Shown here: positions 1,806 through 4,000 of the stretch, piece by piece
Position numbering within the stretch: position 1 is the first letter of the stretch
Layout: every line of letters begins with the position of its first letter
From: a virus
Length of the DNA stretch: 32,071 nucleotides
Direction: 5' to 3' (one strand)
IMG/VR virus record: IMGVR_UViG_3300031726_000031
Location: 1-32,071 of that record
Position numbers and translations under genes: made by a program
The notes under the pieces: model-generated
What the model saw: the letters and a program-made list of their open reading frames with translations, nothing else
Told to the model about the DNA's origin: nothing
Database searches by the model: none

Positions 1806-1834
1806 ACTATGTACCGTTGCGGTACGCACGTCAA
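1806..1834 (-). promoter_or_regulatory. leftward promoter with embedded operator (PL-like)
   Basis: On the minus strand there is TTGACG (1834-1829), a 17-nt spacer and CATAGT (1811-1806). The spacer is almost filled by the perfect palindrome at 1811-1825. The predicted start is near 1799. The same arrangement occurs rightward at 2670-2698, with 22 of 30 positions identical. A bound protein would cover the spacer and block RNA polymerase. A further half site GTACCG lies at 1844-1849. Confidence 0.75.
1811..1825. promoter_or_regulatory. operator OL: GTACCG-N3-CGGTAC palindrome
   Basis: GTACCGTTGCGGTAC is a perfect 6-bp inverted repeat with a 3-bp centre. The only other copy seen in the window is at 2679-2693, also between the -35 and -10 of a predicted promoter. 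The likely ligands are the two small HTH proteins encoded nearby (2214-2606 and 2706-2978). Confidence 0.8.
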
Positions 1835-1906
1835 CCTGAAATCGTACCGATATGGGTCCGCCGTCGAGAAAAAAGCGATGTCGTACCCCGCTGGCAGACT
1901 TTTCAC

Positions 1907-2314
1907 ATGCGAACGAAACGGGTAGCGGTTGCGGCTCGGCCAGGGCTACTGGCGACGGTGATGGAGTGCGTAGGCGACGGGGTGGCCGTCGAGGACTTGA
2001 CTAGCGGGACGAAGCTGCGCCACCAACTGCACAGGATGCAGCCGCTACTCGTCGTCGTGGACGAGAGGGCTGGCCGCACCTGGCGCGCGATCTCGGCGGT
2101 GCCGCGCATCCACCTCGTGCGCTCTCAGCCTCGGGTGATTGCCCTACTGGAGAAGATCGACCAGCGACGGGAAAGACTCGCCGCCATGGCTGGGTGCTAC
2201 GACGCGGTGGACCTCAGCCGGTCTTCTTGGCCGGACGATCTGCGGGAGGCCGTTTGGCTTGCCGGTCAAGACGACGCTGCCGACCTGCCAGTGGTGACGA
2301 CGGGGCAGGGGTAG
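1907..2314 (+). CDS. hypothetical protein between the two early promoters (135 aa)
   Basis: From the ATG at 1907 the frame encodes MRTKRVAVAARPGLLATVME, a central LLVVVDERAGRTWRAISAVP and a helical C-terminal half (RVIALLEKIDQRRERLAAMA). Third codon positions are G/C-rich up to about 2210. The last 100 nt run antisense to the repressor gene, so the two genes converge and overlap. The position resembles that of accessory genes near cI in lambdoid immunity regions. No clear ribosome site is visible, and longer upstream starts exist but would cross the operator. The function is unrecognised, and the C-terminal end beyond 2214 may be poorly constrained. Confidence 0.5.
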   Translation: MRTKRVAVAARPGLLATVMECVGDGVAVEDLTSGTKLRHQLHRMQPLLVVVDERAGRTWRAISAVPRIHLVRSQPRVIALLEKIDQRRERLAAMAGCYDAVDLSRSSWPDDLREAVWLAGQDDAADLPVVTTGQG

Positions 2315-2606
2315 GCGCAGGCGGTGGTGGTGGTGAGGCTTCTCGTCGTCCTCGTTGCTCTGCGGCAAAGACCTGCAGCGCCGTCAAGAACTCGACGGGG
2401 TCCTGTTCAAGTCGCGCGGCGATGCGACCCAGGTAGTCGATACGGAAGGCGCGATTCTCCTTCTCCTTGAGATAGCCAACCAGCTGCGATCGGCTCTTGG
2501 CATAGCCCATCCATCGGGCCAGCTCGGCCTCCTTGATGCCCTCTTTGGTCATCAAATGGCGAAGCCAGGAGCGGATCACGTCATCGAGCAGGGTGGGCCC
2601 AGGCAC
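2214..2606 (-). CDS. HTH transcriptional repressor candidate (CI-like position, 130 aa)
   Basis: Reading leftward from GTG 2606 the protein has an N-terminal helix (LLDDVIRSWLRHL) and a helix-turn-helix region at about residues 20-60 (EAELARWMGYAKSRSQLVGY). LGRIAARLEQDPVEFLTALQ follows, typical of XRE-type domains. The C-terminal third is a Pro/Ala/Arg-rich low-complexity tail, with no LexA-type peptidase motif, so RecA-stimulated self-cleavage is unlikely. The gene lies between two promoters that carry identical operators, which is the position of a lysogeny repressor. The start is uncertain: ATG 2552 would shorten the N-terminus and still keep the HTH. The last 100 nt overlap the convergent gene. 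Confidence 0.65.
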   Translation of the reverse strand: MPGPTLLDDVIRSWLRHLMTKEGIKEAELARWMGYAKSRSQLVGYLKEKENRAFRIDYLGRIAARLEQDPVEFLTALQVFAAEQRGRREASPPPPPAPTPAPSSPLAGRQRRLDRQAKRPPADRPAKKTG

Positions 2607-2669
2607 GTTCTCTAGCCTATCAAGCGGAGCCGTGTGCGACGGCGTTACCTCTGCGGTGCAGCTTTTCAT

Positions 2670-2698
2670 TTGACTGCGGTACCGTTGCGGTACATAGT
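2670..2698 (+). promoter_or_regulatory. rightward promoter with embedded operator (PR-like)
   Basis: TTGACT (2670-2675), a 17-nt spacer and CATAGT (2693-2698) form a good sigma-70-type promoter. The palindrome at 2679-2693 occupies the spacer. Transcription should begin at about 2705-2706, which coincides with the ATG of the Cro-like gene. This promoter would drive the long rightward early operon. Confidence 0.75.
2679..2693. promoter_or_regulatory. operator OR: GTACCG-N3-CGGTAC palindrome
   Basis: This is the second perfect copy of the 15-bp palindrome at 1811-1825, with the central trinucleotide in the same top-strand orientation (TTG). It is preceded by an overlapping CGGTACCG (2677-2684), which is itself palindromic, so this site may hold an additional half site and bind with different affinity from OL. 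Confidence 0.8.
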
Positions 2699-3026: not shown

Positions 3027-3545
3027 ATGGCATCCATGCCTCGAACCATGCGCCAAGACTCACCGGGTAGTCACCGGGTTGAACTTTCCCGGTCCGCTTC
3101 CGGCCCCGAGCAACAGGGGTTTTCCTTCGCTGAAAAGGCCCAGGTCGACGCTACCAAGCGCGAGCTTCTGGCGATGTTTGTCGAGGCTGTGAAGCTGGTC
3201 AAAGAGCGTGGCGGTGTCTCTTGGCTCACGTCCAAGCTGGACTGCGCGCCGTCGTATGAGTCGAAGATCAACGGCGCGATCAACGGCGAGCAAGACCGCA
3301 AGGTGCAGCTCGATTGGTTCGCCCCGCTGCTCGACGACCCGAATGCGGCCGACTTCATTGCGGCGTGGATCTGCCAACGCACCAAGCATGAACCGCCCGT
3401 CAAGAAACGCGTGATCGAGGACAGCGCGATTGAGACCGCTGCGCGCGAGGTCATCGCCGAGATGAAGGACCACGACCAGCGCGACTTGATGCGGGCGCGC
3501 ATTGCCAAGAAGGTCGGATGCCGGCCCGAGGACGTGAAGCTGTGA
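3027..3545 (+). CDS. second early regulator candidate (CII-like position, 172 aa)
   Basis: The N-terminal 40 residues are polar and poorly structured. They are followed by FSFAEKAQVDATKRELLAMF and a helical segment with WLTSKLDCAPSYESKINGAI, which looks like a helix-turn-helix where the second helix contacts DNA. The tail is highly charged and helical (ETAAREVIAEMKDHDQRDLM). The order repressor-Cro-this gene matches the place of CII-type activators in lambdoid phages, but sequence similarity to CII is only suggestive. A GAGG ribosome site lies about 8 nt before ATG 3027; ATG 3036 is also possible. It is more likely DNA-binding than enzymatic. Confidence 0.6.
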   Translation: MASMPRTMRQDSPGSHRVELSRSASGPEQQGFSFAEKAQVDATKRELLAMFVEAVKLVKERGGVSWLTSKLDCAPSYESKINGAINGEQDRKVQLDWFAPLLDDPNAADFIAAWICQRTKHEPPVKKRVIEDSAIETAAREVIAEMKDHDQRDLMRARIAKKVGCRPEDVKL

Positions 3546-4000
3546 TCTGTAGCTGTCAGATTGAGCGATTCTGGAAAAGGGTTTCCAGGTCAGCCGGGTG
3601 TTGGCTCTGGACCGGAGCCAGTGACGGTAGATACGGACAGGCCCACGTCAACAAAAAGCCCGTCAAGGCTCACAGGCTGTCTTGGATTCTATCATTTGGA
3701 GATATCCCGTCAGGCCTGCTCGTATTGCACCGCTGCGATAATCCGCCGTGTGTGAATCCAGCGCATTTGTTTCTTGGAACTAGCCAAGACAACTCGGACG
3801 ACAAGCACGCCAAGGGGCGCAACAGGTCGGGCATCGGCGAGAAATGCCATACGGCGGTTCTTTGCGCTTCCTTGGTGGTTGAGATTCGCCGTCGACACCA
3901 ACAGGGCGAGAGTCACGCGCGGCTCGCGCGCGAATTTGGGGTCTCGCCAAGCAGCATAGGCAGGGCCGCGACCCGTGAAACATGGAGGCACGTTCCATGA
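3542..4000 (+). CDS. HNH homing-type endonuclease with C-terminal HTH (152 aa)
   Basis: GTG 3542 overlaps the TGA of the previous gene (GTGA) and is preferred over an upstream in-frame ATG. The protein shows the HNH_3-type signature: CWLWTGASDGRYGQ at 20-33, AHRLSW at 43-48, then HRCDNPPCVNPAHLFLGT at 63-80 with the zinc/catalytic residues H63, C65, C70, H75, and N84 in the following QDN. The last 50 residues (GESHARLAREFGVSPSSIGR) form a resolvase-like helix-turn-helix that would set target specificity. Such enzymes are often selfish inserts in phage genomes. It sits cleanly between genes, and its base composition is somewhat less GC-rich than its neighbours, which fits recent insertion. Confidence 0.85.
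   Translation: MICSCQIERFWKRVSRSAGCWLWTGASDGRYGQAHVNKKPVKAHRLSWILSFGDIPSGLLVLHRCDNPPCVNPAHLFLGTSQDNSDDKHAKGRNRSGIGEKCHTAVLCASLVVEIRRRHQQGESHARLAREFGVSPSSIGRAATRETWRHVP

Follow-up and report, generated by a model that had tools for sequence, protein, structure and literature searches.

Organization of the locus

The window analyzed here is the entire virus record IMGVR_UViG_3300031726_000031, a stretch of 32,071 bases with a G+C content of 66%. It represents a fragment of a phage genome whose first and last genes run past its ends, both of which lie inside open reading frames. Apart from the genes discussed below, it encodes early genes, an HNH endonuclease, a replicative helicase, a terminase, a Mu-type portal, a head protease, and a tape measure protein. 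No integrase was recognized among the approximately 40 proteins scanned in this fragment, and no match to a tRNA or to an Rfam family was found within the window.

The features of interest (Table 1) are grouped around two opposed predicted promoters, PL and PR. The leader RNA of the PL transcript is not predicted to have an unusual fold (z -1.0). Family searches gave no convincing match for the small open reading frame between the promoters, which was scanned from an upstream start at 1817, or for the second gene of the rightward operon (PHROG and Pfam). The end of the latter gene is overlapped by the gene at 3518-4000, which encodes an HNH endonuclease with a C-terminal HTH. The two convergent genes of the switch region, 1907-2314 and 2214-2606, both lack a Shine-Dalgarno sequence.

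Table 1. Predicted features of the switch region and of leader RNAs in contigs that encode Cro relatives
Feature	Position	Strand	Remarks
First gene of leftward operon, 83 aa	1395-1646	-	Leader of ~150 nt and good ribosome site
PL, predicted leftward promoter	1834-1806	-	TTGACG-17-CATAGT; consensus match
Left operator (candidate), GTACCGTTGCGGTAC	1811-1825		GTACCG-N3-CGGTAC; PL spacer and first -10 base; exact copy
Weak left operator (candidate), GTACCGATATGGGTC	1844-1858		9/12 arm bases; center 33 bp upstream of main operator
Small ORF between PL and PR	1907-2314	+	No Shine-Dalgarno; convergent with repressor gene, 101 bp overlap tail to tail
Putative repressor, 130 aa	2214-2606	-	GTG start; in-frame ATG at 2669 would give 151 aa
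Weak right operator (candidate), TTACCTCTGCGGTGC	2645-2659		9/12 arm bases; center 34 bp upstream of main operator; direct repeat D1, 78%
PR, predicted rightward promoter	2670-2698	+	TTGACT-17-CATAGT; consensus match
Extra overlapping half site, CGGTACCG	2677-2684	+	Right side only
Right operator (candidate), GTACCGTTGCGGTAC	2679-2693		Inside PR; exact copy
Cro-like protein, 90 aa	2706-2978	+	First gene behind PR
Second gene of rightward operon, 172 aa	3027-3545	+	Occupies cII/ydaT place
Structured leader RNA	L050:3391-3480
Structured leader RNA	L052:3391-3480
Structured leader RNA	L053:3403-3480
Structured leader RNA	L058:3388-3480
Structured leader RNA	L064:3400-3480
Structured leader RNA	L065:3404-3492
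Structured leader RNA	L066:2484-2620
Structured leader RNA	L070:3428-3516

A shared palindrome in two opposed predicted promoters

Only three sites in the whole 32 kb match a sigma-70-like promoter at 9 or more of 12 positions, and PL and PR are two of these. We presume from this resemblance that both promoters are active. A consensus search found no promoter for the repressor gene. The twin promoters were already named in the original prediction, and its count of 22 shared positions among 30 was reproduced with one extra upstream base included (22 of 29 over the promoters themselves). Within the -35 and -10 elements and the operator arms, 22 of 23 positions are identical between the two promoters, and none of the six other positions is shared. 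The chance of such a split by counting is 23/1,560,780, or approximately 1.5e-5, for position classes that were set after the sequence had been seen. The conserved bases appear to be selected because nearly all element positions agree while all others differ.

The palindrome GTACCGTTGCGGTAC occurs as an exact copy twice in the 32,071-base record and nowhere else. Its offset from the first -35 base is 9 in both PL and PR, and it extends over 14 of the 17 bases of the spacer and into the -10 element by one base. A scan of the whole record thus bears out the earlier claim that an identical palindrome sits at the same offset in both promoters, with no further copy in the window. Read on the plus strand, both operators have the same sequence even through the center (TTG), and because of this they are direct copies that have been placed inside opposed promoters.

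By our own arithmetic, the probability that 12 specified arm bases fall at a specified place is approximately 1e-7 for this base composition. Recurring dyads with 6-bp arms number seven, versus a mean of 2.9 per shuffled window, which is not significant alone. What lies beyond chance is the placement, in that both copies are in the same register of two promoters. The half-site hexamer GTACCG/CGGTAC is present seven times in the record, and six of these occurrences fall in the two promoter regions.

Weaker sites were sought by allowing the palindrome up to three mismatches. Over the window, this yielded 11 sites versus 12.9 expected by chance, and so there is no enrichment. The candidates GTACCGATATGGGTC and TTACCTCTGCGGTGC form a mirrored pair, and site pairs mirrored to within 1 bp arose in 9 of 100,000 Markov shuffles of the flanks (a rate of 9e-5). 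Two features pointed out previously, a half site (GTACCG) at 1844 and an overlapping CGGTACCG on the right, are both present. That the former belongs to a whole 9/12 match at 1844-1858, and that this match has a mirror site at 2645-2659, had been missed. The proposal that the region is reduced to single operators is thus at most partly right, because the sequence offers a second, degraded candidate site at mirrored distance on each side.

Candidate regulatory proteins

The protein encoded at 2214-2606 has a helical N-terminal part and a tail rich in proline and basic residues. Its matches to PHROG families are marginal (phrog_2328, E 0.056; phrog_3, E 0.069), it gave no Pfam match of any kind, and no peptidase or CI-type C-terminal autocleavage domain was found in it. 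It is mainly the position of the gene that suggests this protein is the repressor.

The protein encoded at 2706-2978 matches the PHROG repressor family phrog_35 (E 0.0018). Only three matches were found in the PDB, each of which is named Cro, with weak E values of 0.2-0.4. The match to the YdaS family of Pfam (E 0.12) falls below the family cut-off. Furthermore, the protein shares 43% identity over 61 aa with the Cro-like protein of phage ctpbd312. Its assignment as Cro-like is therefore supported by these sequence matches, short of proof. The structure models of the two candidates are of low confidence (pLDDT 64-65), that of the repressor being all-helical, and fold searches with either model were uninformative, returning no match.

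The cro gene has no Shine-Dalgarno sequence, although the majority of the other genes checked are preceded by a complete or partial one, and its ATG begins 8 bases past the end of the PR -10 element. Therefore, the cro mRNA is probably leaderless.

Relatives of the region

A nucleotide comparison of the first 25 kb with 50,697 phage records gave no relative, no close relatives of the repressor and Cro proteins were found in the collections searched, and a search with the portal protein returned no relatives. Likewise, the collections searched held no second example of a switch with this operator. In IMG/VR there is no occurrence of the exact operator joined to the -10 pattern or of the -35 element joined to the operator, and the operator is absent from 31 records that carry a distant relative of the helicase, of an early gene, or of Cro.

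A scan of a genome collection with GTACCGNNNCGGTACATAGT gave two matches, L003 and L004. The match in L004 lies inside a coding frame, and that at L003:7946-7982 lies in a spacer of a CRISPR array in the Oscillatoriales MAG RDYN01000075.1, without a -35 element. Neither is evidence for a related switch, because chance alone should produce a match to 17 fixed bases in a collection of that size. The spacer match may be due to chance, or the spacer may come from a phage with a similar operator.

The Cro-like protein has relatives encoded in 25 viral contigs. In at least 12 of these, a TCTAA-N7-TTAGA dyad is located shortly before the Cro-like gene at the place expected of a promoter spacer. Because the dyad sits where that spacer would be, an operator before the Cro-like gene seems to be usual. 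No second promoter copy of the dyad was present within the flanks examined for these loci. Many of the contigs L047-L070 carry an element like ACTATAACACAAATCTAATTNTGTGTTAGACT upstream of the Cro-like gene, which comprises two overlapping dyads and is likely to be the operator-promoter of this group.

Eight of the contigs with Cro relatives also have a predicted structured RNA in the leader that separates the cro-like gene from its promoter. It consists of a closing stem (GGGG/CCCC), the invariant loop parts AAAGCGGAUGCU, a GACGCAGCGAGUA-like strand, and a variable middle. Both sides have changed in 5 of the 11 predicted pairs. At the gathering score, Rfam matched none of these loci, and a search with L064 gave no match up to E 5. 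No good copy of this RNA is present in the window. The RNA is possibly a regulatory element of these switches that has yet to be described.

A model for the switch and its alternatives

We consider it likely that the region is a CI/Cro-type immunity region of a temperate phage, in which a repressor and a Cro-like protein share both operators and block RNA polymerase. With the promoters assigned by consensus, the gene order is the one expected: the repressor candidate is read leftward between PL and PR, and the Cro-like gene comes first behind PR. This reading is further favored by the mirrored weak sites, by the dyad before the Cro-like gene in contigs with Cro relatives, and by the CP-933P switch (PMC8630535). 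It is weakened by the marginal family matches of the repressor candidate, by models of both proteins that returned no fold match, by the missing integrase among the proteins scanned in this fragment, by the lack of a close relative in the collections that could show conservation, and by the finding of no second promoter copy of the dyad in the flanks of the loci with Cro relatives. We infer from the DNA sequence that one protein binds both palindromes, and likewise the order in which the sites are filled. In lysogeny, a dimer of the repressor would occupy the palindrome between the -35 and -10 elements of each early promoter and would thereby deny RNA polymerase access to PL and PR. In the lytic cycle, expression from PR would supply the Cro-like protein, which would bind the main sites and the weaker neighbors 33-34 bp upstream. 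This binding would dampen PL and PR, and probably also a repressor promoter near 2645-2659.

A more specific version of this model is a minimal switch with a perfect and a weak operator per promoter, a short repressor of 130 aa that lacks a cleavage domain, and a cro gene that is leaderless. The repressor would have no cleavage domain, and therefore induction would proceed by a route other than RecA-stimulated self-cleavage. We regard this version as tentative and, on balance, somewhat doubtful.

It is conceivable, albeit unlikely, that the sites are used by the Cro-like protein only, with the true repressor working at other sites or with a different function for the 2214-2606 protein. The Cro and CI sites of phage PY54 indeed share only marginal similarity (PMC4488713), and support for the 2214-2606 protein as a repressor is weak. 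However, the operators of repressor and Cro overlap in lambda and in CP-933P (PMC8630535), and the sites in the window are placed where a lysogenic repressor must act. It is quite improbable that the palindrome is the target of a regulator of the host, for example an SOS repressor resembling LexA, so that prophage induction would be coupled to host state. GTAC-type half sites do occur in some LexA motifs, and induction is otherwise unexplained for a phage repressor candidate in which no peptidase domain is detected. Nevertheless, the repressor of PL and PR is normally encoded by the phage, and the genes of two small candidate regulators are found directly between and next to the sites. Finally, although the two 29-mers form an inverted repeat and a terminator scan flags 1825-1811, it is very improbable that they represent an inverted promoter duplication with a non-regulatory palindrome, or an RNA hairpin or terminator, given that a simple duplication does not predict six differences in six non-element positions beside a palindrome that is perfect in both copies, and that the hairpin would have only six pairs, would lie upstream of the expected transcript start, and is not flagged in the right copy.

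Comparison with known phage switches

The CI/Cro-type reading invites comparison with lambda, which has the same gene order and directions and also carries an operator in the PL and PR spacers at one shared offset. When the lambda sequence was compared directly, its PL and PR 29-mers proved to be identical at 22 of 29 positions, the same count as here. OL1 and OR1 both start at offset 10, versus 9 in the phage studied here, and the operator center lies 18 bases from the -35 start in lambda versus 16 here. Other aspects differ. Lambda has three operators per side at a spacing of 23-24 bp, whereas the present region has one perfect site and one weak candidate that are 33-34 bp apart, and the operator sequence (GTACCG-N3-CGGTAC) is unlike that of lambda. 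The main operators are separated by 868 bp rather than 2,407 bp, a plus-strand open reading frame is found where lambda has rexAB, and the 130-aa repressor, in which no CI-type peptidase domain was found, is unlike lambda CI. Thus, the original likening to a lambda PL/PR switch is well supported by layout and direct comparison, but is doubtful with respect to single operators, given the degraded candidate site on each side.

The closest worked-out system is PaaR2/YdaS/YdaT of the E. coli O157:H7 prophage CP-933P. Experiments have established that its PL and PR, which have identical -35 and -10 elements and related operators, are repressed by the repressor and by YdaS, and that the sites of PaaR2 and YdaS at PR and PRM overlap (PMC8630535). 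Both systems have a short repressor (15 kDa in CP-933P, putative here), a Cro that is of the YdaS type in CP-933P and may be so here, one leaderless switch gene (a probable one here), and PL and PR elements that are alike (PMC8630535). In contrast, CP-933P has several GTTTAGTAA-type palindromes per region and a toxin-antitoxin pair in the repressor operon, and its leaderless gene is that of the repressor, whereas here it is probably cro. The immB region of the telomere phages PY54 and N15 is likewise a simplified CI/Cro region, in which Cro has a single operator (PMC4488713). However, the single Cro site of PY54 acts on the repressor promoter and is the only copy in that genome (PMC4488713).

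As judged from these sequences, the operator placement of lambda is repeated here with a different operator sequence, and the design is that of an ordinary switch. The finding leaves the understanding of phage switches unchanged. What it adds is a compact operator pair, together with a candidate repressor and Cro, from a lineage without close relatives in the collections, and this might constitute an orthogonal repressor-promoter pair.
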